A stretch of DNA of 20,756 nt, taken from positions 1-20,756 of the IMG/VR virus record IMGVR_UViG_3300021376_000437, one strand, 5' to 3'. Each line of letters starts with the position of its first letter. Positions within the stretch are counted from its first letter, which is position 1. The notes beneath the pieces were generated by a model that searched no databases, was not told where the DNA came from, and saw only the letters and a list, made by a program, of their open reading frames with translations. This DNA is from a virus. Positions 5,843 to 19,510 of the stretch are shown one piece after another. The translations under genes were made by a program, and so were the position numbers.

Positions 5843-5885
5843 CTGTCACACCCACCCTTGACTCTGCCCCACCCTGCCCTATAAT
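5843..5885 (+). promoter_or_regulatory. Promoter with CTGNCACAC box, copy E
   Basis: CTGTCACAC (5843-5851), 28 bases, then TATAAT (5880-5885). This copy also has a good -35, TTGACT at 5858-5863 with a 16-base spacer, and has no hairpin in between. The start would be near 5892, about 15 bases before ATG 5907. It is the only copy of the family with an ordinary -35 hexamer. Confidence 0.75.
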
Positions 5886-5906
5886 ATTCTCATACACAAC
5901 AAACCA

Positions 5907-6314
5907 ATGACTTACAAAGCAACTCTCAAGGTTAAGTTTGATACTGAATGGACTTCCACTTCTTATAGTAGTGGATATGATCTTAGTATGCTTCCTGAAG
6001 AGCATTATACTTTTCAGGTTCCTGCTGAAGACCTTAATGTTCATCAACTGTTTCGTTTCTTCGCAACTGTTGCCCGTGCAATGGGTCATAATGACATCAA
6101 CATTATGAAAGGTGCTTGTAGTGTTGCATTTAGTGAGGAAAGAAGTTACGAAGATATGCGTAAGGTTGCTGATGAGTTTGAACTGACTTTGGGTGAAGAC
6201 CTAAAAACGAAGTTTGATGATATGCAGCAAGCAGAAGAAGAGTGGGAACGACTTAAGAAAGGTCCTATGGGAACTGTCCTGACTGATGAGGAACAATGCG
6301 AAGAGTCACTGTAA
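5907..6314 (+). CDS. Unknown protein heading the small-gene operon
   Basis: 135 residues. A beta-rich N-terminal part (YKATLKVKFDTEWTSTSY) leads into EHYTFQVPAEDLNVHQLFRFF, then a helix with ATVARAMGHNDINIMKGAC and a charged C-terminal helix (QAEEEWERLKK). It is the first gene after the promoter at 5843-5885, and its arginines are mostly CGN, unlike the genes to its left. Function unknown. It overlaps the next gene by 19 bases. Confidence 0.75.
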   Translation: MTYKATLKVKFDTEWTSTSYSSGYDLSMLPEEHYTFQVPAEDLNVHQLFRFFATVARAMGHNDINIMKGACSVAFSEERSYEDMRKVADEFELTLGEDLKTKFDDMQQAEEEWERLKKGPMGTVLTDEEQCEESL

Positions 6315-6496
6315 AACCTAAATCTAGCAAGGCAAAGAACCGTCTTGCTAACTCTATGGATGGTAATCCTATCTGTGTTGTTGAGCAAGACAAAGGAGAT
6401 GGTATGTTGTTTCTTGCTAGTGAAAACCAGAAATACTTCTTCTGGGTCAATGTAAGTGAAGACTGCCATTGGGAAACTGAATGGGAAGTATTATGA
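6296..6496 (+). CDS. Small conserved cyanophage protein (KPKSSKAKNR motif)
   Basis: 66 residues: a basic N-terminus RRVTVKPKSSKAKNRLAN, then CVVEQDKGDGMLFLASENQKYFFWVNV and an acidic, Trp-bearing end (DCHWETEWEVL). I recall similar basic small proteins in cyanomyoviruses. The basic start could bind nucleic acid, but that is a guess. It overlaps its left neighbour by 19 bases and its right neighbour by the four bases ATGA. Confidence 0.75.
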   Translation: MRRVTVKPKSSKAKNRLANSMDGNPICVVEQDKGDGMLFLASENQKYFFWVNVSEDCHWETEWEVL

Positions 6497-6696
6497 CTAA
6501 AGCCCAGCAGATTATGAAGTCCTATGATAGAAAGTGGGCAAGTATGAGAAACAAAAACTGCTATGATAGGAAATATGCTATCGCACACCTTATTCGTGAG
6601 ACGGCACATCAAATCCTCCCACACAATCCCAGTCACCCATTTACTGCCTGGAAACAGGAAATGCTACAAATTGCTGATGAAATTGAGGCATTATGA
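6493..6696 (+). CDS. Small helical protein, possible paralogue of the 16915 gene
   Basis: 67 residues, MTKAQQIMKSYDRKW onward. The frame extends to ATG 6481, but ATG 6493 sits in the ATGA overlap with the previous stop and is preferred. It is helical and basic, ending EMLQIADEIEAL. The product at 16915-17118 is also 67 residues, is similarly helical and ends EMFKIAEELENL, so the two may be distant paralogues. Function unknown. Confidence 0.7.
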   Translation: MTKAQQIMKSYDRKWASMRNKNCYDRKYAIAHLIRETAHQILPHNPSHPFTAWKQEMLQIADEIEAL

Positions 6697-6875
6697 AACC
6701 TAAAATGCGTGTCATTCTTGAGATGGCGATTGAAGAAGGTGTGCGTCGTGGGTATGCACGAGCACACAAACATGTAGAGAATCCTACTGAAGGTGCTATA
6801 ATAGAGCACATTGAGGAGGCAGTGATGTCTTCTATCTACGAATACTTTACTTTTGACGAGGAGGATTATCAATGA
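6693..6875 (+). CDS. Small helical acidic-tailed protein
   Basis: 60 residues. MKPKMRVILEMAIEEGVRRGYARAHKH forms a basic amphipathic helix, then NPTEGAIIEHIEEAVMSSIYEYFTFDEED ends acidic. ATGA overlaps join it to both neighbours. A CACAC-hairpin-TATAAT element lies inside its coding sequence (6759-6802) and could drive the genes after it. Function unknown. Confidence 0.75.
   Translation: MKPKMRVILEMAIEEGVRRGYARAHKHVENPTEGAIIEHIEEAVMSSIYEYFTFDEEDYQ
6759..6802 (+). promoter_or_regulatory. Possible internal CTGNCACAC-type promoter, copy H
   Basis: CGAGCACAC (6759-6767), 29 bases, then TATAAT (6797-6802). In between, GTAG (6774-6777) pairs with CTAC (6784-6787). The spacing and architecture match the other copies, but the box is a poor match (CGAG for CTGN) and the site is within a gene. 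The next gene starts 70 bases downstream. Confidence 0.35.
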
Positions 6876-7111
6876 GCTTGATTGATACGCTAGAATACTT
6901 CATCGATGATACCAGGGCACGTTGTTCTGATATTGAATGGGAGATCCGTGAGGAAGGAAACTATGCTCATGAAGAAGATCACACAGCACGATTTGATTAC
7001 TTCTGTGAAGAGTATGATGAAGCAAAAGCACGGTTAGATGATCTGCTACAAATCAAATCCATTATTGAGGCACAACTTCATCAATGGATGGAAACAGGGG
7101 ACGGCGTATGA
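6872..7111 (+). CDS. Small acidic coiled-coil-like protein
   Basis: 79 residues, strongly acidic and helical: LEYFIDDTRARCSDIEWEIREEG, HTARFDYFCEEYDEAKARLDDLLQIKSIIEAQLHQW. The second half looks like a coiled coil. Joined to its neighbours by ATGA overlaps. No recognised family. Acidic small proteins of this sort in phage early operons often bind host proteins, but nothing specific is visible here. Confidence 0.7.
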   Translation: MSLIDTLEYFIDDTRARCSDIEWEIREEGNYAHEEDHTARFDYFCEEYDEAKARLDDLLQIKSIIEAQLHQWMETGDGV

Positions 7112-7278
7112 CTACTAAACCACAAACATTCAAGCATATCTCCCGTGCGATTGATAAACACGGAGTTCATCATCTTGATGCTCTGGATGAATTTGGACGG
7201 CACTGGTATGCTACAATGGAACAGAAAGAAGAACCTTGGCTCACTTATGTTCAACACTGGACTTTGAGGACACACTGA
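7108..7278 (+). CDS. Small protein of unknown function
   Basis: 56 residues, MTTKPQTFKHISRAIDKHGVHHLDALDEFGRHWYATM and so on. I start it at ATG 7108 in the ATGA overlap rather than at the in-frame ATG 7084 inside the previous gene. The DKHGVHHLDALDEFGRHWYATME segment reads as a two-stranded sheet of the kind seen in small phage proteins. Function unknown. Confidence 0.65.
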   Translation: MTTKPQTFKHISRAIDKHGVHHLDALDEFGRHWYATMEQKEEPWLTYVQHWTLRTH

Positions 7279-7280
7279 TT

Positions 7281-7466
7281 ATGTTATTTGACGAACCACT
7301 ACTAAATTCACTACAAGGAACTATGGCTACGATTGACCCCTATTCAGTAAAGAAAGAAGCAATTGATGAGTATCGTATGGATACTATTGAGGAACGACTT
7401 ACTCGTATTGAAGATAAACTTGATTTACTTATTATGCAACTAAAAATAGAGTTTTACAAAAAATGA
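7281..7466 (+). CDS. Small coiled-coil protein
   Basis: 61 residues from ATG 7281. The C-terminal MDTIEERLTRIEDKLDLLIMQLK is a clear leucine-rich coiled coil, so it probably dimerises. GAGGA lies 10 bases before ATG 7281. ATG 7323, with AAGGA four bases ahead of it, is an alternative start giving a 47-residue protein that keeps the coil. ATGA overlap with the next gene. Function unknown. Confidence 0.65.
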   Translation: MLFDEPLLNSLQGTMATIDPYSVKKEAIDEYRMDTIEERLTRIEDKLDLLIMQLKIEFYKK

Positions 7467-7636
7467 TTGACCTTATCAAAACACTACTCAAATCAGCACT
7501 TGCCACCTCCCGTTGGGGTCCGCTAACAGAGGCAGATGAAGAACTTGTATGGGACTCTTCTTTTGCTAAAATATTCAAAGCATCATCTATCCGCCGAACA
7601 CCGTCAACACCACGCACTGCAATTACACTTGAATGA
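7463..7636 (+). CDS. 57-residue protein in the coupled chain
   Basis: Starts at ATG 7463 within the ATGA overlap and stops at 7634-7636, again in an ATGA overlap with the next gene. Exact coupling on both sides is the main reason to call it. The product begins MIDLIKTLLKSALATSRWGP with a short amphipathic helix, then ADEELVWDSSFAKIF and a basic end SSIRRTPSTPRTA. Function unknown. Confidence 0.6.
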   Translation: MIDLIKTLLKSALATSRWGPLTEADEELVWDSSFAKIFKASSIRRTPSTPRTAITLE

Positions 7637-7863
7637 CTCAACTTATTGATCCTTCTGATCCACGCTATTTCCGTCAAACATCTGACGAACCATATCTCCG
7701 TCACGATTATAAATTAGTAACAAGCACTGGCGAATCTGTTATCTTTGATAATTATGAAGATGTGCAGCGTAGGTGGTTTGAGCGTGGTGGTAATTTTTTA
7801 AGTCACGTTGAGGTTCTAGATCACAAAGAACCGAAAAAAAGCAAAAAGACAAAGGGTTTCTGA
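7633..7863 (+). CDS. SHVEVLD-type small cyanophage protein, copy 1
   Basis: 76 residues: SDEPYLRHDYKLVTSTGESVIFDNYEDVQRRWFER, then LSHVEVLDHKEPKKSKKTKGF. The product of 20533-20736 has the same plan (SDAPYDKHRYAVVS, LILDDYMEVYQVW, LSHVEVLDRIEKKKPVKGF), so the two are paralogues. The shared features are a beta hairpin, a DxYxxV helix, the invariant SHVEVLD strand and a basic KGF tail. I recall this family as widespread in cyanomyoviruses; function unknown. ATGA-coupled to the previous gene. Confidence 0.8.
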   Translation: MTQLIDPSDPRYFRQTSDEPYLRHDYKLVTSTGESVIFDNYEDVQRRWFERGGNFLSHVEVLDHKEPKKSKKTKGF

Positions 7864-7865
7864 TT

Positions 7866-8327
7866 ATGATTGACTGGACAACGAGATTTGAAGCTCTGCC
7901 CGATGTAGAAAAAGATAAGATTGCTCTGTTGCGAGTGATTGAATGTACGAATGGTATTATTCAACACACCTATCGTGCTGGTGAAGATGATACACTGACT
8001 GTTGATGAAGTCAGAGATGCCATGAAGTTCTCTATGGGATGTATGAAGCGTATGGAAATACCTGTAGGAGATAAAGTGGTTACATTTGCACCTGAAACTG
8101 CGGAACTCTTCACTGAAATGAGACGATTGTATATCTCTGGTGCGAAACAAAACAATCAAGAAGATTTTAATGAGTTTCTCAAAGGATCTAAAGCAAATCT
8201 ACTTGCAATAGGTAAAGAACGCATCCTGGAAGCAAGACGACTTGCATTTGAACATATTGACGAATTACCACCTCATACACTAGAATGGGGACTTGAATAC
8301 ATCTTTAGTTTTGCTGGGTGGGTATGA
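7866..8327 (+). CDS. Helical protein of unknown function
   Basis: 153 residues, mostly alpha-helical: LPDVEKDKIALLRVIECTNGIIQHTYR, LTVDEVRDAMKFSMGCMKRMEI, ETAELFTEMRRLYISGAKQNN, NLLAIGKERILEARRLAFEHIDELP. It begins two bases after the previous stop and overlaps the next gene. No motif recognised. It is one of the larger proteins in this chain. Confidence 0.7.
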   Translation: MIDWTTRFEALPDVEKDKIALLRVIECTNGIIQHTYRAGEDDTLTVDEVRDAMKFSMGCMKRMEIPVGDKVVTFAPETAELFTEMRRLYISGAKQNNQEDFNEFLKGSKANLLAIGKERILEARRLAFEHIDELPPHTLEWGLEYIFSFAGWV

Positions 8328-8629
8328 TGACTGACAAAATTACACTTGAACTCACACTTGAAGAACTCAAACTGATTGATAAGTATGTTGAGTTAAATGA
8401 TGAGACCCAGAGTGTATTTGATAAAATCAAGTATGCTTATCCTAAACCAGAAACTCTCTATGATGTTTGTATGACTTGGTGGGGGAGAGTGTTTGATAAT
8501 AATGATGATATGGAAACTTGCATTGATGATTTGGTAGATAATATTGACTATTGGTTGCCGAAAGAACACGACACTAACAGTTATAAATGGAATGAGTGTA
8601 TCCGAACAATTAGGGAGAAACTACGATAA
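8324..8629 (+). CDS. Small acidic protein of unknown function
   Basis: 101 residues from ATG 8324 (MMTDKITLELTLEELKLIDKY). ATG 8327 and GTG 8318 are alternatives; ATG 8324 lies in the ATGA overlap. It begins with a strand-helix, then ETLYDVCMTWWGRVFDNNDDMETCIDDLVDNIDYWLPKE, and ends basic (CIRTIREKLR). The LELTLEELKLI opening resembles common small phage proteins but gives no function. Confidence 0.65.
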   Translation: MMTDKITLELTLEELKLIDKYVELNDETQSVFDKIKYAYPKPETLYDVCMTWWGRVFDNNDDMETCIDDLVDNIDYWLPKEHDTNSYKWNECIRTIREKLR

Positions 8630-8823
8630 TGCCTTTTTTTCCTGACTGCTATGATGAGTGGGGATTGTATCAGATCACCTACGATGGAGACCACAAACTA
8701 TATGAAATGTTGTTTGAGGGCACAGAAGAAGAGTGTCGTCAATATGCCTACGATAACTACACTGACAAGGAGCAAACTAACATGTGCTTGATGGATTGGG
8801 AAGCTAGGGAGTGGGATGTATGA
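8629..8823 (+). CDS. Small acidic aromatic protein
   Basis: 64 residues: DEWGLYQITYDGDHKLYEMLFEGTEEECRQYAYDN, then MCLMDWEAREWDV. It reads as a beta hairpin, the phrase GTEEECRQYA starting a helix, and a final strand. That arrangement is common among small phage proteins that display a feature value or parameter strand, with no known activity. Start TAATG overlaps the previous stop by one base. Unknown function. Confidence 0.65.
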   Translation: MPFFPDCYDEWGLYQITYDGDHKLYEMLFEGTEEECRQYAYDNYTDKEQTNMCLMDWEAREWDV

Positions 8824-9128
8824 CTAACATAATCAACAAACTACTTGCCATTTTTAATCTCAAACTTGTATCCACTAAACCAGATACAAGTTTGGCAAAA
8901 GAAACTGTAAAGTTCTTGGAACGACATAAAGATTATTGGAATGGTGATGTTTTTTTCCCTTCTTATGTTGGAGATATTAACTATGTCCAAGAATGGGTGG
9001 AAGGTGAGTTTCCGCAAGTTTCTGGTGGGATTTATATTTGCGAACGAGTATTAGGAACAGAAGACAAGTATTATGATTATAATGGAGATACTTATACAGC
9101 AGAGCAACTTCAAGAAAAACTAAAATGA
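8820..9128 (+). CDS. Unknown protein with N-terminal hydrophobic helix
   Basis: 102 residues from ATG 8820 (ATGA overlap; GTG 8811 also in frame). MTNIINKLLAIFNLKLVST is a hydrophobic, weakly basic helix that may touch the membrane. Then come TVKFLERHKDYWNGDVFFPSYVGDINYVQEW and an aromatic, acidic C-terminus with EDKYYDYNGDTYTAEQLQEKL. Not recognised. Confidence 0.65.
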   Translation: MTNIINKLLAIFNLKLVSTKPDTSLAKETVKFLERHKDYWNGDVFFPSYVGDINYVQEWVEGEFPQVSGGIYICERVLGTEDKYYDYNGDTYTAEQLQEKLK

Positions 9129-9394
9129 AACTTTTTGACTACGAAACTTACGAGGATTATGGTAAGGAATGGTTCTTACAAATCCTTCCGCACGGTAGAT
9201 ATGCCCTATTAGATTTTTCACTACAGTGGGATGAATATCATGGTGAGGAATGGTTCCCACGGATTGCTATTCATATTGGTGATACTACTGTGTGTGGATT
9301 TTTCATTCGTTATAGACGATTGTATTTTAGTTGTGATATAATTTGTATCAAACGTGATTTTAGCTGGTATAGAAATAGGAGTAGTTATGTCTGA
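9125..9394 (+). CDS. Unknown protein, paralogue of the 5541 gene
   Basis: 89 residues, MKLFDYETYEDYGKEWFLQILPHGRYALLDFSLQW onward. It shares the MKL start, WxxQIL strand, GR(Y/H) and the following Trp-bearing strands with the 5541-5840 product. The C-terminal half is aromatic (RYRRLYFSCDIICIKRDFSWY). It overlaps the previous gene by ATGA and the next gene by eight bases. An extended -10 promoter motif lies within it. Function unknown. Confidence 0.7.
   Translation: MKLFDYETYEDYGKEWFLQILPHGRYALLDFSLQWDEYHGEEWFPRIAIHIGDTTVCGFFIRYRRLYFSCDIICIKRDFSWYRNRSSYV
9334..9342 (+). promoter_or_regulatory. Extended -10 promoter motif inside a gene
   Basis: TGATATAAT: a TG dinucleotide one base before a perfect TATAAT (9337-9342). 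No good -35 is visible, but extended -10 promoters often lack one. A start near 9349 would give a ~38-base leader for the gene at 9387, which has its own strong ribosome-binding site (AGGAG). Confidence 0.45.
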
Positions 9395-9731
9395 ACCATA
9401 CCCTGATGAAATGTTTGAGGAAGCAGCACGAAGAGAAAAAGAAAACAAAGTCCTAGACATCGCAAAGAACCTTATGGAAGAACATAAGGAAGCATTCCAA
9501 CATCTTGCTGCGATTGAAAGAAAAGAACTTGCCGAAAAAGGATTTGAAGAACTCACCACAAATGAGAAAATTCAACTTGCCCTTGAAGAGATTGATTGGA
9601 TTGTGATTGGTGGTCAAGATGGTGAAGAGTTTTATGGTTCTATTCAGTTTCTTCGTAAGGTGTTGAGGAGCCTTGTGATACCTGAACAACCGTCACAAGG
9701 ACACACCAGAACCGACCTGGATGCCCTATAA
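9387..9731 (+). CDS. Charged helical protein of unknown function
   Basis: 114 residues from ATG 9387, preceded by AGGAG at a spacing of five; that is why I prefer it to the upstream in-frame GTG. The first ~70 residues are one highly charged helical run (PDEMFEEAARREKENKVLDIAKNLMEEHKEAFQHLAAIERKELAEKG), then ALEEIDWIVIGGQDGEEFYGSIQFLRKVL. The end overlaps the next promoter. Not recognised. Confidence 0.7.
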   Translation: MSEPYPDEMFEEAARREKENKVLDIAKNLMEEHKEAFQHLAAIERKELAEKGFEELTTNEKIQLALEEIDWIVIGGQDGEEFYGSIQFLRKVLRSLVIPEQPSQGHTRTDLDAL

Positions 9732-9732
9732 T
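9690..9732 (+). promoter_or_regulatory. CTGNCACAC-type promoter, copy F
   Basis: CCGTCACAA (9690-9698), 28 bases, then TATAAT (9727-9732). In between, CCAG (9706-9709) can pair with CTGG (9717-9720). No -35 hexamer stands at the usual place. The box deviates at its second and last bases. Start near 9739, about 17 bases before ATG 9756. Confidence 0.6.
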
Positions 9733-9755
9733 ACACTTGTACACACAGAACTCTA

Positions 9756-9995
9756 ATGTCTAACTTCTACACTTTACTTCCTGGAACTGATGTGCTCCGC
9801 AGTAAGATTGATGTCTTTACTTGGACTAATCCCGAAAATGAAAATGAAACTGAACGAGTAGAACTCACAGTAGATAATGCTGGTATTTTCATTACTTCTT
9901 GTTCTGGTGGTGCTCGTGAAGATATGAGTATTTCACAGAAGGATTTGGCGATTGCTCTTGCTCGTGGAATTCTTGAAGCATATGGAGTTGGTTGA
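9756..9995 (+). CDS. Small protein heading a new operon
   Basis: 79 residues: FYTLLPGTDVLRSKIDVFTWTNPENENETERVELTVDNAGIFITS, beta-rich, then SISQKDLAIALARGILEAYGVG, a helix. The ending ALARGILEAYG resembles the end of the 10784 product (SFARSILESMG), hinting at a shared small fold. It is first after promoter copy F. Function unknown. Confidence 0.7.
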   Translation: MSNFYTLLPGTDVLRSKIDVFTWTNPENENETERVELTVDNAGIFITSCSGGAREDMSISQKDLAIALARGILEAYGVG

Positions 9996-10319
9996 ATGAC
10001 TGACATTTCTAAACTTTCTTATAAAGAACTCCAAAAACTTGCAAAACAAATTGATGAACGCAAAGAGGTATTGCGTAAGTCAAAAGACTGTGTTGAAGGT
10101 TATAAAATCACCTTCTGTGTAAAGTTCAATCCTGCTGAACACCAATTTGATGAATTGAAAAGTCCAGAAGATTTTGGTGATTATTTGGCAAATGATGTGG
10201 CAAATATGATTATCAAAGATTTGGGTCTTCTGCAATCTGATGTAAGTGCTTTTATCATTGAAGAAATGACTGATGAAGATAAGGTAGAATGGAAGAACTT
10301 CTGGGAGGATGATGAATGA
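9996..10319 (+). CDS. Helical protein of unknown function
   Basis: 107 residues. The N-terminal MTDISKLSYKELQKLAKQIDERKEVLRK is a charged helix of the type seen in H-NS-like and small phage proteins. It is followed by a domain with YKITFCVKFNPAEHQFDE, FGDYLANDVANMIIKDLG and an acidic end. The start directly follows the previous TGA and the gene is ATGA-coupled to the next. The H-NS-like impression rests on one helix only and I do not assign it. Confidence 0.7.
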   Translation: MTDISKLSYKELQKLAKQIDERKEVLRKSKDCVEGYKITFCVKFNPAEHQFDELKSPEDFGDYLANDVANMIIKDLGLLQSDVSAFIIEEMTDEDKVEWKNFWEDDE

Positions 10320-10615
10320 CTTACAAACTTGATCCAGAAGCAAAAGCATTCTCATACACTCGTGAAGAGTTGTTTGAGTGCATCAAAAAGATTGTAGCAC
10401 ACCCACACACTGCGATCACGAAGCACGACCAATCCCGTGCTCTTGCGATTATGATGGTGTTTGATGATTACTTCACCAATTACACTGAAAGTGATAACAA
10501 TGGTGGGCATTATGTTTATGAACAAGATGCAATTGACTTTATTTCTTTTGTAAGATTTAAACTTGGTATTGCTGGATTACCTGATGGTATTGATGTTGAT
10601 GAGGTGTTGAAGTGA
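10316..10615 (+). CDS. Unknown helical protein
   Basis: 99 residues: AFSYTREELFECIKKIVAHPHTAITKHDQSRALAIMMVFDDYFTNY, then QDAIDFISFVRFKLGIAGLPDGIDVDEVLK. All-helical in appearance, with a histidine-bearing loop. Coupled by ATGA on its left and by GTGA on its right. No family recognised. Confidence 0.7.
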   Translation: MTYKLDPEAKAFSYTREELFECIKKIVAHPHTAITKHDQSRALAIMMVFDDYFTNYTESDNNGGHYVYEQDAIDFISFVRFKLGIAGLPDGIDVDEVLK

Positions 10616-12106: not shown

Positions 12107-12510
12107 ACAAACAAAACGGATTTATTGACCCTGCAGTTGCTGCTATTGCTGTAGGTGTGGTAGTGATTGGTGGTCTCATCTTTATTGGTGGTCCCCAATA
12201 CAATGTGTGGCAACAATCTCTTGCTGGTAAAGCAGAACTGCAAAAAGCAGAATATACCCGCCAGGTAGCAGTTCTGGAAGCACAAGCAAAAAAAGATAGT
12301 GCTCAACAACTTGCTGATGCTGAAATCATTCGTGCCACTGGTGTTGCTAAGGCAAACCAAATCATCGGTGATTCGCTGAAAGATAACCGTGAGTATCTTC
12401 AGTATCTGTATATCACTGGTATCGAAGATGGTTCTAAGAATGGTAATGTAACCATCTATGTGCCCACTGAAGGTGGTATGCCTGTTCCTACTCTTCAGAT
12501 GAACAAGTGA
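12103..12510 (+). CDS. Membrane-anchored SPFH/band-7-tail-like protein
   Basis: 135 residues: a short polar start, one membrane span at about 11-30 (AVAAIAVGVVVIGGLIFIGG), then a helical coiled coil (WQQSLAGKAELQKAEYTRQVAVLEAQAKKDSAQQLADAEIIRATGVAKANQIIGDSL), REYLQYLYITGIED, and NVTIYVPTEGGMPVPTL. The Ala/Glu-rich coil followed by EYLxYLxI and a TIYVPT strand is how stomatin/prohibitin (SPFH, HflC-like) proteins end. The SPFH domain itself, normally ~150 residues, is missing, so this is anchor plus tail only. It may join host membrane scaffolds. Last gene before a strong terminator. Confidence 0.7.
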   Translation: MNKQNGFIDPAVAAIAVGVVVIGGLIFIGGPQYNVWQQSLAGKAELQKAEYTRQVAVLEAQAKKDSAQQLADAEIIRATGVAKANQIIGDSLKDNREYLQYLYITGIEDGSKNGNVTIYVPTEGGMPVPTLQMNK

Positions 12511-12521
12511 CACTTTGAAGA

Positions 12522-12564
12522 CTGTCCACACCACCCCTTCTGGGGTGGTTTTTTGCTTTATACT
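12522..12564 (+). promoter_or_regulatory. CTGNCACAC-type promoter, copy A
   Basis: CTGTCCACAC (12522-12531, one extra base), 27 bases, then TATACT (12559-12564). The intervening DNA is the terminator hairpin (12530-12554), whose TTCT loop lies where a -35 would be. Start near 12571, 20 bases before ATG 12591. Here terminator and promoter occupy the same bases. Confidence 0.6.
12530..12554 (+). terminator. Rho-independent terminator
   Basis: ACCACCCC (12530-12537), loop TTCT, GGGGTGGT (12542-12549), then TTTTT. It is a perfect eight-pair GC-rich stem with a T run, 20 bases after the stop of the SPFH-like gene. It is the only hairpin of its kind in the window with a proper T tract. Confidence 0.85.
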
Positions 12565-12590
12565 GACTTCAGTTCAAACAAACACCTCTC

Positions 12591-13052
12591 ATGACTGCTT
12601 CCACCTTTGACCAGTATGTTGCTGAGCAGGATGCCCGCAACACAATCCAACTCAATGTGACCAAGTGGACTTGGTTGTTGTGTGATGCTCTGCGGCAGAA
12701 TTATATTGACTATTCCATTCGTAGTCACTATAATGCTCTTCAGCGTGGGGAAGATACTAACTATCACGAAGCATGTATTGTTGACTTGAAGAATGGTCAT
12801 TGTGGTTATGACTTTACTTTTGAGAGTGGTAAAAAATATCACAAAGTTATCATGAGCATTGACAATGGTGGCAAACTGCCCAACTCTCGTAGTGTGCATT
12901 GCTTCATTGACAAGAAGACTGGTGAAGTCTACAAGTCTGCATCTTGGAAGTCTCCTGCCAAAGGTGTTCGCTACGATCTGCGTATTCTCAATCAGCGTGA
13001 ATGGTTACTTGCCAACGCTGATTGGGCAGGTCATTATCTCTACGCTCGATGA
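12591..13052 (+). CDS. Unknown protein sharing a C-terminal domain with the 4269 gene
   Basis: 153 residues. The first part is helical (DQYVAEQDARNTIQLNVTKWTWLLCDALRQNYIDY), the middle has HEACIVDLKNGHCGYDFTFESGKKYHKVIMSIDNGG, and the end has VHCFIDKKTGEVYKSASW and ADWAGHYLYAR. The last ~70 residues match the 4269-4757 product. The two proteins differ at the N-terminus, so this domain is probably a mobile unit or the fold core. First gene after the terminator/promoter element. Function unknown. Confidence 0.75.
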   Translation: MTASTFDQYVAEQDARNTIQLNVTKWTWLLCDALRQNYIDYSIRSHYNALQRGEDTNYHEACIVDLKNGHCGYDFTFESGKKYHKVIMSIDNGGKLPNSRSVHCFIDKKTGEVYKSASWKSPAKGVRYDLRILNQREWLLANADWAGHYLYAR

Positions 13053-13238: not shown

Positions 13239-13662
13239 AATCAATGGGTATGGTGCCCATAAAAAGCTTTGCGAGGACATTTTGATTTGGTTTATCACCA
13301 AATTCTATCCTCGTCACAAGATTGATATTACTGTGAGTCATCGCGGTATGAAGAGAGAGGGTGCATATGGATATTGTGATATTATGGGTGGAGAACGCTA
13401 TCCACGCACCTTTTTGATTGAAATGCAGTCTAATATGAATAAAAGACTGTATGCATCAACTTTGCTGCATGAATTGATTCATGTAAAGCAGTGGATTGAT
13501 GGAACAATGAAACTCAATAAAGGGAAAAGGATTTATAAGGGAATTAATGTGGAGGAGTTGGATTATTCTGACCAACCACATGAGGTGGAAGCACATGAGA
13601 ATGAGGAGAAGTATCTACTCACATTCATGTGTGATAGTGGTAGAGTGTGGACAGGTCTCTAG
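13225..13662 (+). CDS. HEXXH zinc metallopeptidase-like protein
   Basis: 145 residues from ATG 13225. Further 5' the frame continues through DNA used by the small membrane gene, so I prefer this start. The core is STLLHELIHVKQW with HELIH at residues 82-86, the zinc-binding helix of metallopeptidases: two His ligands and a catalytic Glu. Residues 113-125 (DYSDQPHEVEAHE) resemble the downstream PxExEA segment of SprT-like and related phage/bacterial peptidases, where a Glu or His completes the zinc site. Before it, TFLIEMQSNMNKRLYASTLLHE is the expected strand-helix. It is probably a cytoplasmic peptidase of unknown substrate. A hairpin/promoter element follows its stop. Confidence 0.75.
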   Translation: MFYYEINGYGAHKKLCEDILIWFITKFYPRHKIDITVSHRGMKREGAYGYCDIMGGERYPRTFLIEMQSNMNKRLYASTLLHELIHVKQWIDGTMKLNKGKRIYKGINVEELDYSDQPHEVEAHENEEKYLLTFMCDSGRVWTGL

Positions 13663-13707
13663 CTGGCACACTACCACCCCACGTAGGGGTGGTTCTACCC
13701 CTATAAT
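13663..13707 (+). promoter_or_regulatory. CTGNCACAC-type promoter, copy B
   Basis: CTGGCACAC (13663-13671) starts right after the TAG stop; 30 bases later comes TATAAT (13702-13707). The hairpin ACCACCCC (13673-13680), loop ACGTA, GGGGTGGT (13686-13693) has the same stem as terminator copy A but lacks a T run. Start near 13714, 19 bases before ATG 13733. No -35 hexamer. Confidence 0.65.
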
Positions 13708-13732: not shown

Positions 13733-13918
13733 ATGACTTCCATTCAAGACCACTTCAAACTCTACGCTTCTGGTCTGTGGGCATGTCCTAGGACTGGTAT
13801 GCTGCTGACTCTGGATCAGGCACCTCTCTGCTGGGAGGAGGTTGATGCCATGGAGCATGACTGCTTTGACTCTTACAATGAGTGGAGTGAGCACTGCTCC
13901 AATCTGTTTGCTGCTTGA
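13733..13918 (+). CDS. Small protein, single gene between two promoters
   Basis: 61 residues from ATG 13733: MTSIQDHFKLYASGLWACPR, then TGMLLTLDQAPLCWEEVDAMEHDCFDSYNEWSEHCSNLF. It is acidic with four Cys and several Trp. The frame is open far upstream, but that part runs through the previous gene and the promoter hairpin. It is bracketed by promoter copy B and a consensus sigma70 promoter. Function unknown. Confidence 0.7.
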   Translation: MTSIQDHFKLYASGLWACPRTGMLLTLDQAPLCWEEVDAMEHDCFDSYNEWSEHCSNLFAA

Positions 13919-14970: not shown

Positions 14971-15755
14971 TAACTGCAGGATACCTAGATGTATTGGATC
15001 AACAAGGAATTGATGCCACATTAGAACGAATTAATTTATTGGATGATTGGTGGATTCCAAGAGGAATTTACTGTGCAAACACTGGGTTCTCTCCTGATGA
15101 TGAGAATCCAGTGGATTTCTATACTCTAGGTCCTGCAACATATATTGATTGTATGGTTAACACTCAGGTGTATACCATGATGACTATGCAGACAAATCCA
15201 TTACTCAAAGACTATTTTGATTGGTTATATGATACTGTGATTTATCATTTGTATTATGAGATTGGTCCTTGTCGTCTAAATGAATCCTTAGCATACCCTG
15301 GATTTCATATATTTGGATGTAAACCTGGACAAGAACCAAAGCCAGCAACAAAAGAATATATGGAACGTCCAAGTGCAACTATTCATGTGGATCTTCAACA
15401 AGAGAGGCATGGTACAGTATGGAATCAATATAATGAGGTAGACCTTGAGAATTGCCTGTCATTTACTCTTTGTTTAGAGGTTCCTAAAACTGGTGCTGGT
15501 CTCAACACATGGAATGAAGAATCTATTAAATGCTATGAGGCAAATGATGACTATGCAAAAGCAATCAAATCGCTTGAGTATGGTGCATATGGAACACCAA
15601 CTGTGATTCCTTATATTCCTGGTAAAATGTTTTATTTTATTGGTCCATTACAACACCAGATCGCTCCTGCATATAATTTGGCATTAAATGATCGTAGGAT
15701 CACACTACAGGGTCATGGTGTCAAATGTGATGGGGTTTGGGAGATATATTTCTAA
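14967..15755 (+). CDS. 2-oxoglutarate/Fe(II)-dependent oxygenase-like protein
   Basis: 262 residues. An N-terminal helical region precedes the oxygenase barrel: ERPSATIHVDLQ (H140-V-D142, first iron ligands), CLSFTLCLEVPKTGAGLNTW, IPGKMFYFIGPLQHQIAP (distal H230), and NDRRITLQGHG (Arg243/244, the likely 2-oxoglutarate anchor), ending GVWEIYF. The layout (HxD, GxGLNxW, LxHQIAP, RRITLQGHG) matches a family I recall from cyanobacteria and their phages. It differs in sequence from the two-domain enzyme at 2551. The substrate is unknown. A fucosyltransferase-like gene follows, so a sugar or virion modification role is possible. Arginine codons are AGA-rich. Confidence 0.75.
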   Translation: MITAGYLDVLDQQGIDATLERINLLDDWWIPRGIYCANTGFSPDDENPVDFYTLGPATYIDCMVNTQVYTMMTMQTNPLLKDYFDWLYDTVIYHLYYEIGPCRLNESLAYPGFHIFGCKPGQEPKPATKEYMERPSATIHVDLQQERHGTVWNQYNEVDLENCLSFTLCLEVPKTGAGLNTWNEESIKCYEANDDYAKAIKSLEYGAYGTPTVIPYIPGKMFYFIGPLQHQIAPAYNLALNDRRITLQGHGVKCDGVWEIYF

Positions 15756-15758
15756 ATA
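15752..15758 (+). promoter_or_regulatory. Putative late promoter (CTAAATA)
   Basis: CTAAATA overlapping the stop codon of the oxygenase gene, 24 bases before ATG 15783. Same heptamer as at 1383 and at 18577 (minus). Confidence 0.5.
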
Positions 15759-15782
15759 ATAACACTGGATAATTTGCGCGAC

Positions 15783-16913
15783 ATGATTAAATTTCATCAA
15801 GATTTTGCTGCTACTGGAACTGGATTAGGATATCAAATATCTTCATATATGTTAATGCGTTCCATTGCAAATAGAACGGGGTATAGTTATACTATCAATA
15901 CAAATGGATTAAAAGCACTTAGAAATACATTTACCAATTTACAATTTAACAGCATTAAAGATGAACTTGATGCGGATTTAAAACCAATTGAGTTTTTGGA
16001 TGATAACTCTTTTGAAGAAGTTGTTGCAATGGTGGAGGATAATTGTGAATTATATGGTTATCCCACTGTTAAGAGTATGGTTGATCCTGCTAATTTTGAA
16101 TCTGTTAAAAAAGAACTGCACTTTAGACCAGAGATTGTTGAGAAGTGCCAAAAGTTTATGTCCCAATTTGATGGGCAAGAAGTAGTATCAATGCATCTAC
16201 GTAGAGGTGACTTTGAAGATCTTCAATCTGGAATGTTTTTAATTGATGATGATTACTATAAAGAAGCATTAGAGTTGCTACCAAAAGATATTCCTGTTCT
16301 TATTTTTTGTAATGTAAAAGATTATATTTTAACTCATCCTATTCTAACTGCAAGTGATCCAGAGAGATTTACTTTTGTTCTTGATATATTCAATGATAAT
16401 GAATTTATTAATTGTGATGTAGGGCAAGAGTTGGATAGATTGGTTGATGCTTCTGGAGAGTGTAGATTTGATTATAAAGCAGCATTAGCTAAACACGCTT
16501 ATGATAATCTAATACCATCCACCCCGACTCAAGAGGAGTTAAATCAAGAGATGGTGAGACTTGCAAAAGAATTACATCCATTATATAAAAAGAAGATTGC
16601 AAATAATCTTTATAATTATTCATTTGAACTTTGTTTAATGTCAATGTGTGATTATCATATTATGGCAAATAGTTCATTTGGTATGTGGGGCGTTCAATTG
16701 TCAAATACTAAGAAAGTAATATATCCTAAGTATTGGATGCAAGGTCATGATGAAGAGACAAGGAATGCTTTTGCAGAAATTGGTTTAGGTGCGATTAAAA
16801 TAGATCTTGGTGGTTATGATCAAACCAGAGACCTTGCAGAATATATTATTGATAAACCACACTACATAGGATTAGAGAATCCAGATCAACGTTCATTTAC
16901 AATTGTTAGTTAA
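15783..16913 (+). CDS. GT11-like alpha-1,2-fucosyltransferase
   Basis: 376 residues from ATG 15783 (a TTG nine bases earlier is less likely). N-terminal GTGLGYQISSYMLMRSIANRTG (12-33) corresponds to the GxLGNQxFQYAxxxxLA opening of family GT11. MHLRRGDF (137-144) is the HxRRxD donor-binding motif I. MSMCDYHIMANSSFGMWG (286-303) is the 'CxHxIIANSTFSWW' motif. These enzymes transfer fucose from GDP-fucose to a galactose-type acceptor. Usual members are ~290 residues; this one has about 80-90 extra residues between the two motifs (roughly 190-280), rich in Asp, Glu and Leu. A CTAAATA late motif precedes it. It may decorate virion or host surface sugars. Confidence 0.8.
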   Translation: MIKFHQDFAATGTGLGYQISSYMLMRSIANRTGYSYTINTNGLKALRNTFTNLQFNSIKDELDADLKPIEFLDDNSFEEVVAMVEDNCELYGYPTVKSMVDPANFESVKKELHFRPEIVEKCQKFMSQFDGQEVVSMHLRRGDFEDLQSGMFLIDDDYYKEALELLPKDIPVLIFCNVKDYILTHPILTASDPERFTFVLDIFNDNEFINCDVGQELDRLVDASGECRFDYKAALAKHAYDNLIPSTPTQEELNQEMVRLAKELHPLYKKKIANNLYNYSFELCLMSMCDYHIMANSSFGMWGVQLSNTKKVIYPKYWMQGHDEETRNAFAEIGLGAIKIDLGGYDQTRDLAEYIIDKPHYIGLENPDQRSFTIVS

Positions 16914-16914
16914 G

Positions 16915-17118
16915 ATGTCAACCAGAGCAAAAAGATTAGAACAAGAGTATTTGAGAACCATGAATATTCTGCTCAAAACTACTCATGATAAAAAAGATAA
17001 AATTGGCACAAAGGCATTGGCAGGATTTGTCAGAACGTTAATTGATGAATGTCCACAGATGAATCTTAAGACTGCTCAGGAAATGTTCAAAATAGCAGAA
17101 GAACTGGAGAATCTATAG
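16915..17118 (+). CDS. Small helical protein, possible paralogue of the 6493 gene
   Basis: 67 residues from ATG 16915: MSTRAKRLEQEYLRTMNILL, KDKIGTKALAGFVRTLIDECPQMN, LKTAQEMFKIAEELENL. Helical and basic, the same length and same ending type (IAxExExL) as the 6493 product. TTG 16903 opens the frame earlier but lies in the previous gene. Function unknown. Confidence 0.7.
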   Translation: MSTRAKRLEQEYLRTMNILLKTTHDKKDKIGTKALAGFVRTLIDECPQMNLKTAQEMFKIAEELENL

Positions 17119-17133
17119 TAGACAGCAAAACAA

Positions 17134-17176
17134 GTGGCACACAGGGGCACGGGGACGCCTCTGGTGAAGTTATAAT
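17134..17176 (+). promoter_or_regulatory. CTGNCACAC-type promoter, copy C
   Basis: GTGGCACAC (17134-17142), 28 bases, TATAAT (17171-17176). AGGGGC (17143-17148) pairs with GCCTCT (17157-17162) with one G-U. The loop is centred where a -35 would be, and no -35 hexamer is present. The -10 overlaps ATG 17175, so if the promoter is real the gene should start at ATG 17199. Confidence 0.6.
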
Positions 17177-17507
17177 GATTATGCGTTATTCACCAATCAT
17201 GTCAATCATTGCTGGTCTCGCTTGTGGGATTGCCACTTTCTATGGTATAGGAGATGGATTTCATGGACAAATTACGGCAAATGGTGAGCGGTTTGATGCT
17301 TATCGTTGGACTGCAGCTCATCCTTATCTACCTATGGGTACACGCATACGGGTAACCAACCAAGATAATGGTAAACAGGTAATTGTAAGAGTAAATGATC
17401 GTGGACCTTATTCACATGCTGATTTGGATTTGAGTTACGCTGCATTCTCTCACATCGAATCTGCCAAAAAAGGCAATGCTACCGTTTGTTGGAGAGTTGT
17501 GGTATAA
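17175..17507 (+). CDS. RlpA-like septal peptidoglycan glycosylase domain protein
   Basis: 110 residues. A hydrophobic N-terminus (SPIMSIIAGLACGIATFYGIG) is a signal sequence or anchor; then the double-psi beta-barrel of RlpA: YGIGDGFHGQITANGERFDA, TAAHPYLPMGTRIRVTNQDNGKQVIVRVNDRGPY, DLDLSYAAFSHI. Glu38, His49 and Asp75 have the same spacing (11 and 26) that I recall for the catalytic Glu120, His131 and Asp157 of Pseudomonas RlpA, a lytic transglycosylase acting on stem-peptide-free septal glycan. No SPOR domain is present. ATG 17175, 17181 and 17199 are all in frame; promoter position favours 17199. First gene of an envelope-directed group. Confidence 0.8.
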   Translation: MIMRYSPIMSIIAGLACGIATFYGIGDGFHGQITANGERFDAYRWTAAHPYLPMGTRIRVTNQDNGKQVIVRVNDRGPYSHADLDLSYAAFSHIESAKKGNATVCWRVVV

Positions 17508-17707
17508 TGTACTCTGCACTATTCACTCTGTTACAGTTATGTGTAAATGAGATTTACATCTGTGAGAGAGATTATCCTAAACCAGCTCAGGTTTATTATG
17601 AACCAGAGAAGTCTTGTTATCGAGATGGTGTATTCTATCCCAGATGTAAAGACCTAGAAAACCCAGAAGTATTACACTATCACAACTTATTCAAAAAAGA
17701 TTCATGA
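17507..17707 (+). CDS. Small cysteine-bearing, possibly exported protein
   Basis: 66 residues from ATG 17507, overlapping the previous TAA by one base. MYSALFTLLQLCVNEIYICE has a short hydrophobic start that could be a weak signal sequence; then YPKPAQVYYEPEKSCYRDGVFYPRCKDLENPE with paired Cys suited to a disulfide. Lies between RlpA-like and signal-peptide proteins, which supports export. Function unknown. Confidence 0.6.
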   Translation: MYSALFTLLQLCVNEIYICERDYPKPAQVYYEPEKSCYRDGVFYPRCKDLENPEVLHYHNLFKKDS

Positions 17708-18090
17708 TTAAGCAACTTCTTGCAATTTCTACCATTCTAATTGCTGCACCTGTATTTGCACAGACTGCACCACCAAAACCAAAAACTTATCGTCCATTTG
17801 CATATGAGAGTCCATGTGTATTGGAGGCAGGACTTCAAACCTATCATGATACATGTAAGGTAGTAGAAACTCGTGAGACTGGTGGTGCTCTTCGCACTCG
17901 TAACATCTTCTCTAATAAGTTTGGTCTGACTATCAAAGGTCGATTTGATAAAGAGAAGGGTTATATGACTTGGGATAGTCATAACAAATATGAATATAAG
18001 TGGCAGTATAAGATTGGTGGTATTCAAGAATTTGGTGCATGGACATATGTAATGCCTGGATTCTTACTTCAAAATGTTTCTTGGGATTGA
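17704..18090 (+). CDS. Exported protein with cleavable signal peptide
   Basis: 128 residues. MIKQLLAISTILIAAPVFA is a textbook signal peptide with a V-F-A cleavage site before Gln20, then TAPPKPKTYRPFAYESPC. The mature part (AGLQTYHDTCKVVETRETGGALRTRNIFSNKFGLTIKGRF, YKWQYKIGGIQEFGAWTYVMPG) is beta-rich with two Cys. It should act in the periplasm. ATGA-coupled to the gene before it. Function unknown. Confidence 0.8.
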   Translation: MIKQLLAISTILIAAPVFAQTAPPKPKTYRPFAYESPCVLEAGLQTYHDTCKVVETRETGGALRTRNIFSNKFGLTIKGRFDKEKGYMTWDSHNKYEYKWQYKIGGIQEFGAWTYVMPGFLLQNVSWD

Positions 18091-18093
18091 ATT

Positions 18094-18318
18094 ATGATTA
18101 TGAAGGATTATGTGTTGTATCCAAGTTTTATCCTAACAGCGGTGCTTGGATTTATTACTGGTGGTGCATTTTATGCCCAATCGTCTTTTGACGATGCACT
18201 TAAACTATGCAATCAAAAACCATTAGAGTGTAAGTTTAAGTATGATATTATCAATTATCATGAGACTGGCAAGGTTCCCTATACTGCATCAGTAGCAAAA
18301 CCAAAACCTCAACCTTGA
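18094..18318 (+). CDS. Membrane-anchored protein with proline-rich tail
   Basis: 74 residues: a basic start, the span YVLYPSFILTAVLGFITGGAFYA, then QSSFDDALKLCNQKPLECKFKYDIINYHETGKVP and a Pro/Lys tail ending KPKPQP. An Ala-x-Ala-like site (FYAQS) could be cleaved or the helix could stay as an anchor; the charge pattern puts the rest outside. The end overlaps the convergent minus-strand gene by 10 bases. Confidence 0.7.
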   Translation: MIMKDYVLYPSFILTAVLGFITGGAFYAQSSFDDALKLCNQKPLECKFKYDIINYHETGKVPYTASVAKPKPQP

Positions 18319-18554
18319 GATTGACGTTCTAATCTATCTAATCTTTGTTGTTTTATCTGTGCCGCCTTCTCTCTGGCGGCATTTTGTCTATCTAATGCGT
18401 TTTGTTTAAATTCTGCTTCTCTGTCTGCACTTGATGTACTTGCTGCTTGTCTTCTTGCAGTCATTCTGTTTTTTGGTGCTGATTGGCGATCAAGAGTTTG
18501 CAAGTCTCTTCTTAGTTGGTTTAGATCTTCATTAAACTCTTGAAAGGTCTTCAT
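18309..18554 (-). CDS. Candidate internal head protein with capsid-targeting-like start
   Basis: 81 residues, the only minus-strand gene. MKTFQEFNEDLNQLRRDLQT is very like the capsid-targeting sequence of T4 internal proteins (MKTYQEFIAE), which sends IPI-III and Alt into the prohead and is removed by protease gp21. The rest is basic, Arg/Gln/Ala-rich and helical (REAEFKQNALDRQNAAREKAAQIKQQRLDRLERQ), as expected for a DNA-packing or injected protein. A CTAAATA late motif (minus, 18577-18583) lies 23 bases ahead of the ATG. No clear gp21 site (I/L-x-E) is visible near the N-terminus. Confidence 0.7.
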   Translation of the reverse strand: MKTFQEFNEDLNQLRRDLQTLDRQSAPKNRMTARRQAASTSSADREAEFKQNALDRQNAAREKAAQIKQQRLDRLERQSQG

Positions 18555-18561
18555 TGTATGC

Positions 18562-18590
18562 TTGACATTTTTGAATATTTAGATTATAGT
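18562..18590 (+). promoter_or_regulatory. Strong sigma70-type promoter (divergent)
   Basis: TTGACA (18562-18567), 17 bases, TATAGT (18585-18590). It points right, with a start near 18597 and a 41-base leader to ATG 18638. It overlaps the minus-strand late motif, so host-type and late polymerase could compete here. Confidence 0.75.
18577..18583 (-). promoter_or_regulatory. Putative late promoter (CTAAATA), minus strand
   Basis: Plus-strand TATTTAG reads CTAAATA on the minus strand. Predicted start near 18571 gives a ~17-base leader to the ATG at 18554. A TATAAT also reads on the minus strand at 18583-18588. Confidence 0.5.
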
Positions 18591-18637
18591 TATGTCTGAG
18601 TTTAATACACTCACACATCACACACAGGAGTAACACA

Positions 18638-18835
18638 ATGACACCTTACGAACTTCGATTCCAAATCTTCCAACAAGCGAATGGTTTGGCACAAGATGAA
18701 TACCATGCTAATTTTGCATTAGTTGAACAGTGGAACAAAGAACATTCAGTTAAAATGGATTATCCTCAGTTCCCCTCATATACTGACATCGAAAGTCTTG
18801 CAGATAAAATCAACGCATTTGTAAGTTCTAAGTGA
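18638..18835 (+). CDS. Small conserved cyanophage protein (MTPYELRFQIF)
   Basis: 65 residues: MTPYELRFQIFQQANGLAQD, EYHANFALVEQWNKEHSVK, YPQFPSYTDIESLADKINAFVSSK. I recall MTPYELRxxIF proteins as common in T4-like cyanophages; role unknown. AGGAG at a spacing of eight bases supports ATG 18638. Strong sigma70-type promoter upstream. Confidence 0.8.
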   Translation: MTPYELRFQIFQQANGLAQDEYHANFALVEQWNKEHSVKMDYPQFPSYTDIESLADKINAFVSSK

Positions 18836-18846
18836 CACTTCAATAG

Positions 18847-18890
18847 CTGGCACACTGGGCACTCTGGTTCGCTGGAGTGCCCTTTATACT
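18847..18890 (+). promoter_or_regulatory. CTGNCACAC-type promoter, copy D
   Basis: CTGGCACAC (18847-18855), 29 bases, TATACT (18885-18890). A perfect eight-pair hairpin, GGGCACTC (18857-18864) with GAGTGCCC (18875-18882), fills the gap; no -35 hexamer. Start near 18897, so the gene begins at ATG 18915 rather than ATG 18891. Confidence 0.65.
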
Positions 18891-18914
18891 ATGAGGGTAG
18901 TCAACAAACACTGC

Positions 18915-19364
18915 ATGTCCAACTCCGCTGCGATTGCCTTCTACGAGGACAATCTCACCTATGTCAAAGCATTTGGTCTGTCCAATCTTGACCGTGAGGA
19001 TCGTCTTCTGTTCCGTCAGGGTAAAAAACTGATTGAAGATGCCATTCAGGCAGAACAGAAGCAGAATGAGCGTATTCCGTTCATTGAAGAGGAGATTCTT
19101 CCTGTTTTGCAGGAGTATCTGGCATCCTATGGTGAAGATGGTCAAATCAAAGTATTTGATCGTCATGTTGCTGCTGAAGGTATGCAACCGTTCCGTAAGA
19201 ATCCGATTGCATCTGCAATGGGATTGCATGGTCAAATTGTCTTCCTTGACATGAAGAACAATACGATTGTAAAATCGTTTGACCGCACTGGTAAAACTCT
19301 TAAAGAGTTGCTCAAGAGTTACAATGACTCTATTGGTTACACCCGATTCAACATTGAGGACTGA
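18915..19364 (+). CDS. Unknown protein, CGN-arginine type
   Basis: 149 residues from ATG 18915; ATG 18891 is in frame but falls directly after the -10 box. Residues: SNSAAIAFYEDNLTYVKAFGLSN, LDREDRLLFRQGKKLIEDAI, then IPFIEEEILPVLQEYLASYG, PIASAMGLHGQIVFLDMKNNTIVKSFDRTGKTLKELL. It is mixed helix and strand. All eight arginines are CGN codons, against three of thirteen in the fucosyltransferase. Function unknown. Confidence 0.75.
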   Translation: MSNSAAIAFYEDNLTYVKAFGLSNLDREDRLLFRQGKKLIEDAIQAEQKQNERIPFIEEEILPVLQEYLASYGEDGQIKVFDRHVAAEGMQPFRKNPIASAMGLHGQIVFLDMKNNTIVKSFDRTGKTLKELLKSYNDSIGYTRFNIED

Positions 19365-19371
19365 ACTTACC

Positions 19372-19497
19372 ATGGATTACGATTACAACGAGTATCAACT
19401 GCGCTCTGTGCTGGACACTGACATGGAACTGGATTCACTCCTGGATGAGGAGTGGCCAATTGAAGAACTGCCACACGAACTCCTGCGTGAGTTCTGA
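19372..19497 (+). CDS. 41-residue acidic protein
   Basis: ATG 19372, eight bases after the previous stop, to TGA 19495-19497. MDYDYNEYQLRSVLDTDMEL then DSLLDEEWPIEELPHELLREF is extremely acidic, like many small phage inhibitor or anti-restriction proteins, but no specific match is claimed. Its last codons contain the box and hairpin of promoter copy G. Confidence 0.6.
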   Translation: MDYDYNEYQLRSVLDTDMELDSLLDEEWPIEELPHELLREF

Positions 19498-19510
19498 GGC
19501 ACTCTATAAT
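19468..19510 (+). promoter_or_regulatory. CTGNCACAC-type promoter, copy G
   Basis: CTGCCACAC (19468-19476), 28 bases, TATAAT (19505-19510). Perfect six-pair hairpin GAACTC (19477-19482), loop CTGCGT, GAGTTC (19489-19494), with the loop centred on the -35 position. The box and hairpin are also codons of the 41-residue gene. Start near 19517, 19 bases before ATG 19536. Confidence 0.65.

Follow-up and report, generated by a model that had tools for sequence, protein, structure and literature searches.

A 24-bp inverted repeat upstream of cyanophage -10 boxes also stands upstream of the host small RNA gene yfr2

The sequence examined here, a viral stretch of 20,756 nucleotides (nt) covering positions 1 to 20,756 of IMG/VR record IMGVR_UViG_3300021376_000437 and hereafter called the window, contains seven sites at which a 24-base-pair (bp) inverted repeat, TGTGNCASTTNNNNAASTGNCACA, lies about 28 bp 5′ of a -10 box. 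In a first-pass annotation of this DNA, a short box had been noticed upstream of seven -10 boxes (5880, 9727, 12559, 13702, 17171, 18885, and 19505) and assigned to an apparently unnamed class of phage promoter. All seven pairs are present at these places. The box is real, but it is half of a dyad, the inverted half of which is directly 5′ of it, and the sites in the window match 13-16 of the 18 fixed positions of this dyad. Newly noted here is that the phage dyad also stands upstream of yfr2, a gene for a host small RNA (sRNA).

All of the sites are on the + strand. Gaps were counted from the end of the box to the -10, and the predicted transcription start (+1) was set at the 7th base 3′ of the -10 throughout the window. 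Operator dyad 1 (5827..5850; 13/18 fixed positions; box 5843-5851; total profile score 44.7) is followed after a gap of 28 by the TATAAT of promoter 1 (5880..5885), with the predicted +1 at 5892 and a gene at 5907-6314. Likewise, operator dyad 2 (9674..9697; 15/18; box 9690-9698; score 28.4) has TATAAT at 9727..9732 (gap 28), a predicted +1 at 9739, and a gene at 9756-9995. In promoter 3, the dyad (12506..12529; 13/18; score 19.0) contains the box CTGTCCACA(C) at 12522, and the -10 is TATACT at 12559..12564 (gap 28), ahead of a predicted +1 at 12571 and a DUF7717 gene at 12591-13052; a terminator-like stem-loop occupies the spacer (12530..12549; spacer minimum free energy (MFE) -14.6 kcal/mol). 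Another such stem-loop (13673..13693; -15.5 kcal/mol) is found in promoter 4, between the dyad (13647..13670; 13/18; box 13663-13671; score 28.5) and TATAAT at 13702..13707 (gap 30; predicted +1 13714; gene 13733-13918). Operator dyad 5 (17118..17141; 13/18; score 19.8), with box GTGGCACAC at 17134-17142, precedes TATAAT at 17171..17176 (gap 28; predicted +1 17183) and a gene at 17199-17507. The best match to the dyad, 16/18, is operator dyad 6 (18831..18854; box 18847-18855; score 38.4), which is separated from TATACT at 18885..18890 (gap 29; predicted +1 18897; gene 18915 to 19364) by a third stem-loop (18857..18882; -19.4 kcal/mol). Finally, operator dyad 7 (19452..19475; 14/18; box 19468-19476; score 39.4) stands before TATAAT at 19505..19510 (gap 28; predicted +1 19517; gene 19536-19727).

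One gap reported at first pass is corrected: the copy at 12522 is CTGTCCACAC, which is one base longer, and as a 9-mer it has a gap of 28. Predicted leaders are 15-20 nt at all seven sites, counted to ATG codons at 5907, 9756, 12591, 13733, 17199, 18915, and 19536. For promoters 5 and 6 the longest open reading frames begin 5′ of the predicted +1, at 17175 and 18891, and the true start codons are therefore likely to be ATG 17199 and ATG 18915. A -35-like hexamer is present in the window only before 5880 (TTGACT at 5858, 5/6 letters); the other six sites reach at most 2/6, as had been claimed.

In the window, the box by itself (up to two mismatches) is not enriched, with 159 observed and 161 expected, and as a stand-alone word it was rejected, its frequency being equal to that in shuffled sequence. 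The exact word CTGNCACAC followed at 22-34 bases by TATAAT occurs three times on the + strand, not at all on the - strand, and not at all in the reversed control. A looser rule, in which the box with up to two mismatches is followed at a gap of 27-30 by TATAAT or TATACT on either strand, gave nine matches, whereas 100 shuffles (first-order Markov resamples, as in the profile test below) averaged 0.45 and never exceeded 3. The nine comprise 6759 (+), 16362 (-), 3440 (-), and every one of the seven sites but 12559. When a profile trained solely on other virus contigs was applied, exactly the seven sites scored at least 18 bits in the window; 200 shuffles gave 0.025 such sites on average and never more than 1. 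The seven sites are real and the original observation is confirmed.

The named phages closest to the window are Synechococcus phages S-SRM01, S-SZBM1, and S-PM2, with matching patches that make up no more than 3 % of it. Two DUF7717 family proteins are encoded, at 4269-4757 and 12591-13052, the second directly 3′ of a promoter, and the product of 17199-17507 is a DPBB-domain (lytic transglycolase) protein. Other genes include a 2OG-Fe(II) oxygenase (2551-3705) and a family 11 glycosyltransferase (15774-16913).

The architecture of the element was defined from virus contigs, in which a scan for CTGGCACAC-N26..31-TATAAT found at least 120 stretches with 131 sites, not deduplicated. Among these at least 131 sites the gap is 28 in 61, 29 in 38, 27 in 20, 30 in five, 31 in four, and 26 in three. 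A consensus was built from the 113 distinct sites with a gap of 27-29 among the matches listed. The bases just 5′ of the box are C (90 %), A (81 %), S, T (85 %), T (67 %), N4, A (81 %), and A (90 %), and 3′ of the -10 an RTA motif at bases 7-9 is followed by an A-rich leader. An ATG is present within 40 nt in 97 of the 113, compared with 30 % in shuffles, most commonly 22-24 nt after the -10. Relative to the predicted +1, the dyad is centred at about -53 and the box ends at about -41. The suggestion of an activator-type site upstream of the -10 is thus borne out, with six of the seven window sites lacking a -35. Strong stem-loops in the spacer, often with T's after them, are present at three of the seven window sites, and the spacer MFE is -10 kcal/mol or lower in 31 % of the 113 sites, compared with 1.5 % of shuffles; from the sequence, the terminator of the upstream operon appears to be folded into the spacer of the next promoter. 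Six other virus-contig loci have CACTT...AAACTGTCACAC or AAACTGGCACAC with no -10 at a gap of 28, and in these a G/C-rich inverted repeat (ACCAACCCCC...GGGGGCTTTGGT) lies 3′ of the operator-like word.

For the spacing, a seed containing the operator only was also used, so that the -10 was absent from the query, and the -10 was then scored as TATAAT with up to one mismatch. Of the 114 distinct virus sites listed, 88 are followed by a TATAAT-like -10 at a gap of 26-30, as are 57 of the 80 listed sites in loci that had not been fetched by the TATAAT pattern. A scan of genome contigs (bacteria and archaea) with a slightly looser seed found at least 118 stretches; the 80 listed are mostly from unrelated bacteria, with six cyanobacterial and none labelled Synechococcus or Prochlorococcus. 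Only 4 of the 115 listed sites there show a -10 with the spacing seen in phages, and they were therefore used as the null. Strong operators number 167 across ten cyanophage genomes, and 112 of them have a -10 at a gap of 26-31 on either side, whereas control gaps gave 9.0 on average; recurrence with a fixed spacing among related phages, proposed as a check at first pass, is thus supported.

Profile sites of at least 18 bits were counted for each genome on the + and - strands, several of the minor-strand matches being the palindrome read backwards. The counts (+/-) are 8/0 in Syn9, 15/1 in S-PM2, 11/2 in P-TIM40, 17/8 in P-SSM2, 8/6 in P-HM2, 0/11 in S-RSM4, 0/6 in S-SZBM1, 29/2 in S-SRM01, 5/0 in S-TIM5, 0/1 in P-SSP7, 2/16 in S-SKS1, and 18/7 in S-CRM01, with none in T4, Ma-LMM01, or HTVC008M. 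Ten cyanophages thus carry 6 to 31 such sites per genome, some of them one palindrome counted on both strands. Shuffles of the genomes other than S-SKS1 and S-CRM01 gave no sites, except for 0.33 in P-TIM40 and Ma-LMM01.

Six of the 13 phage records have the perfect dyad TGTGNCA-N10-TGNCACA, at 23 places in all, and none of the 13 matches the reversed control. Allowing three mismatches, the full dyad is found in 12 of the 19 records searched, with the reversed control matching 0-2 times in each: four times in Syn9, 10 in S-PM2, seven in P-TIM40, 13 in P-SSM2, 17 in S-SRM01, nine in P-HM2, six in S-RSM4, two in S-SZBM1, six in P-SSM4, 20 in S-CRM01, eight in S-SKS1, and two in HTVC008M, which has one in the reversed control. 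The dyad therefore recurs in ten T4-like cyanomyoviruses and in S-SKS1, which is of a separate lineage. At the same threshold it was not found in S-TIM5 or T4. S-TIM5 is a cyanomyovirus placed outside the Kyanoviridae; its operator at 163-171 kilobases (kb) is a variant that ends in CTGGCCCAA, and the -10s, at gaps of 28-29, are TATACT- or TATATT-like. In Syn9 (48574, 51016, and 53012) and S-CRM01 (127-135 kb) the operator stands before unusual -10 regions (GTGTATTCTATAAGAGT-like; TATGCTAGCTAAGT), which are perhaps a subclass.

Sites are clustered at 44-53 kb in Syn9, 45-56 kb in P-TIM40, 42-69 kb in P-SSM2, and 34-40 kb in P-HM2, with others elsewhere, and in the annotation of these four phages the clusters lie among runs of mostly small hypothetical genes. 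The layout of the window predicts a distance of 63-75 nt from site to gene; this distance to the start of an annotated gene was found for 8 of 10 + strand sites in P-TIM40 (44-57.5 kb) and for 10 of 17 in P-SSM2 (42-70 kb).

A search of 386 genomes from the cyanobacterial phylum found the exact dyad at seven places in six of them, with none in the reversed control. Directly 3′ of it, in five of the six loci fetched (L461 being the exception), is the RNA family Cyano-1 of Rfam, which we take to be the Yfr2 family. Cyano-1 was found in 168 of 194 Cyanobacteriia genomes, in agreement with the description of Yfr2 as 'almost universally present' (PMC6778093). It was not found in 30 small genomes of the phylum, although three of the five larger genomes searched alongside matched; neither was Cyano-2 found in the same 30, but for Cyano-2 no control genome matched either. 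The 30 small genomes are presumably from non-photosynthetic relatives, and the class Cyanobacteriia was therefore used for the host set.

The six loci fetched by the operator itself were left out of the enrichment because of how they were chosen, and an unbiased set was assembled by RNA family alone, in which 28 of 30 loci could be placed. Within it, the phage-trained operator profile reaches at least 10 bits in 11 of 28 yfr2 promoters, 40-52 nt before the GAGG motif of the RNA, where 0.031 would be expected from the remainder of the same 28 loci. In small cyanobacterial genomes (1.6-2.9 Mb; 33 of 35 regions placed, 15 loci overlapping the 28-promoter set), 10 of 33 yfr2 promoters score at least 10 bits and 23 of 33 at least 3 bits, no expectation having been computed for this set. 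The sequence of the yfr2 element is TGTGACAGTTAAGATAGAGG at six loci of Prochlorococcus size, of which five score only 3.1, and CAGTCAACCAACTGATAC or similar at others. In the host loci of at least 10 bits the distance from operator to GAGG is 42-49 nt, and in the phages the end of the operator is about 40 nt from the predicted +1; the two are compatible to within a few bases. The sequences indicate that the dyad and its approximate position are common to phage promoters and host yfr2 promoters.

A regulator is already known for the host promoters. The GntR regulator PMM1637 binds yfr2 promoters carrying the motif CGRE1 and mediates the induction of Yfr2 when light is high and when nitrogen starvation is at a late stage (PMC6778093). 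Yfr2 regulation in marine picocyanobacteria is credited to PlmA, which is universal in and restricted to the cyanobacteria, interacts with PII-PipX, and in Synechocystis interacts with a thioredoxin (PMC7344720); the Yfr2a promoter of Synechocystis is very strong and light-stimulated (PMC2662882). A GntR domain (PF00392) was detected in 8/8 host genomes tested, and in none of 11 phage records, a set that does not include S-SKS1, S-CRM01, and P-SSM4. One Prochlorococcus-size genome has a single GntR protein, of 330 residues, which matches no NCBIfam model at cut-off and is presumably PlmA. Since the operator is of the yfr2 type and GntR is present in the hosts tested and absent from the phages tested, host PlmA is the most likely candidate as its binder. 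The same dyad in yfr2 promoters, for which both a motif and a regulator have been published (PMC6778093), also makes it doubtful that the promoter class is unnamed, or that it depends on a phage-coded counterpart of MotA, as had been proposed at first pass.

The likely reading of the seven sites is therefore a set of activator-dependent sigma-70 promoters, probably early, through which a cyanomyovirus uses host PlmA. A dimer of PMM1637/PlmA would bind the 24-bp inverted-repeat operator, the centre of which is about 53 bp 5′ of the predicted +1, and, once bound, would recruit the RNA polymerase of the host to the -10 in the same way as at yfr2. The phage would need no protein of its own, the regulator being already in the cell, and the outcome would be expression of its small-gene operons, probably early in infection. 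We infer from the sequences both that PlmA binds the phage DNA and that it activates rather than represses; on this basis the virus, it is suggested, borrows a host switch to turn on its genes.

Several results weigh against this reading. Among the 113 listed virus-contig sites, 11 have a -35-like hexamer (at least 5/6 letters), compared with 0.9 % in shuffled spacers, and the class is therefore not strictly without a -35. In the ten cyanophage genomes, a good -10 at the expected distance is missing from 55 of the 167 strong operators, and Syn9 and S-CRM01 often have other -10 variants (TATTCT, TATGCT). In the shifted-gap control, as many as 7.5 matches of 18 bits per genome came from strong operators by themselves; as the profile counts are confounded in this way, the spacing rests on the operator-only and ten-genome tests. 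The full dyad (up to three mismatches) was not found in P-SSP7, Syn5, PSS2, S-CBS2, or Ma-LMM01, the last of which infects a cyanobacterium. On the host side, 17 of the 28 yfr2 promoters in the RNA-family set are below 10 bits, and five Prochlorococcus-size loci have one clear half-site, at 3.1 bits. The gap from host operator to -10 is not clean, with best hexamers of one to three mismatches at 24-33. An operator-like word with no Rfam family at gathering was found at six of the 80 listed loci, all six cyanobacterial, and L461 is without Cyano-1 too, so not every host occurrence is at yfr2. Lastly, we infer that the dyad is the published CGRE1 from the yfr2 promoter that they share.

It is unlikely that the dyad is instead bound by a non-GntR activator coded by the phage or carried in the virion, a true functional counterpart of MotA, with the likeness to yfr2 either convergent or reflecting a co-used site. 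Phage genomes hold the operator at a higher density than those of hosts, phages have many small proteins of undefined role, and S-TIM5 has a variant of its own, all of which would fit such a protein; however, host yfr2 promoters share the dyad at nearly the same position, early genes would require a factor that is already in the cell or injected, and Syn9 gp230, the sole annotated small 'transcriptional regulator' tested, matches no Pfam family. Less probable again is a repressor site, through which host PlmA or a phage repressor would delay or shut off the promoters. Many GntR proteins are repressors, but a centre near -53, the lack of a -35 at six of seven sites, and a tight gap of 27-29 are typical of activation, and the induction of Yfr2 is described as mediated by PMM1637 (PMC6778093). 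That these are standard sigma-70 promoters in front of which the box lies by chance can hardly be sustained and was rejected, since the unenriched box, the TTGACT of site 1, and the 11 sites with -35-like hexamers are outweighed by the window shuffles (0.025), the operator-only test (88/114 listed virus sites, 4/115 listed genome sites), the ten-genome test (112/167 against 9.0), and the fixed spacing in independent genomes.

Returning to activation by host PlmA, early timing appears more likely than middle, because the sites head small-gene clusters and the proposed activator is present before infection. The middle timing given at first pass is unsupported, the location in small-gene clusters pointing to early. 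Doron et al. 2016 (ISME J) reportedly describe a novel element for the early genes of Syn9 and host-like promoters for its middle genes, with similar results in P-TIM40. That early element may well be this dyad, in which case the class has already been reported and only the link to yfr2 is added here; the link to the yfr2 operator may in turn already have been stated in Lambrecht et al. 2018. In the available parts of the cyanophage and cyanobacterial literature searched, a comparison that does not extend to those two papers, no link between phages and PlmA was found. The motif was not found in the available parts of PMC5780444, PMC11237433, PMC8776855, PMC7238727, PMC6414667, PMC9692554, PMC2864571, PMC7368042, or PMC10452541, and that of PMC5082946 yielded no per-gene list of expression classes.

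Early and middle transcription of T4-like cyanophages without MotA and AsiA was described as unclear as of 2010 (PMC2984593). If the promoters do run on PlmA, a regulator is named, and the takeover of abundant ocean phototrophs by viruses is tied to the light and nitrogen signalling of the host. We put forward more tentatively that PlmA might be a general activator of small-gene (early) operons in marine and freshwater cyanomyoviruses and in S-SKS1, in which early transcription would sense the state of the host and limit itself by titration of PlmA. Phage early transcription would then follow the photosynthetic and nitrogen state of the cell; as phage DNA replicates, its sites would draw PlmA away, and both the early promoters of the phage and the host sRNA Yfr2 would be switched off. 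The titration idea comes from setting the 6 to 31 sites per genome against the approximately 200 PlmA dimers per cell of Synechococcus elongatus (PMC7344720). The dyad also provides a simple sequence rule for locating such operons, and likely start codons, in contigs of uncultured viruses.

Compared with known systems, the sites resemble T4 middle promoters in having an upstream activator site in place of the -35 and a good -10. The MotA box of T4 is centred near -30, whereas the 24-bp dyad is centred at about -53 and its box ends at about -41; the layout is different, as claimed at first pass, and a T4 middle (MotA) reading was rejected. Likewise, the -35 at 16-18 bp before the -10 that defines T4 early or canonical sigma-70 promoters is present in 1/7 window sites and 11/113 listed virus-contig sites, and the sites do not fit that class. 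As regards the early element of Syn9 and P-TIM40 reportedly described by Doron et al. 2016, the dyad is present in the small-gene clusters of the same phages. Cyanomyoviruses are without homologues of motA and asi (PMC2984593). Sites for the host activator NtcA have been reported in cyanophage genomes (PMC3037559), a parallel in that host activator sites are placed in phage DNA, but the dyad is different; the consensus of the 113 listed sites has no GTA-N8-TAC core and an NtcA-activated promoter was rejected. With respect to host yfr2 (CGRE1/GntR), the phage dyad differs in that it is present in multiple copies before protein operons, whereas in Prochlorococcus MED4 CGRE1 is said to be present nowhere else (PMC6778093). 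It is like yfr2 in being a dyad with a CAGTY/AACTG core and TGNCACA arms, which in the host loci of at least 10 bits stands 42-49 nt before the GAGG.

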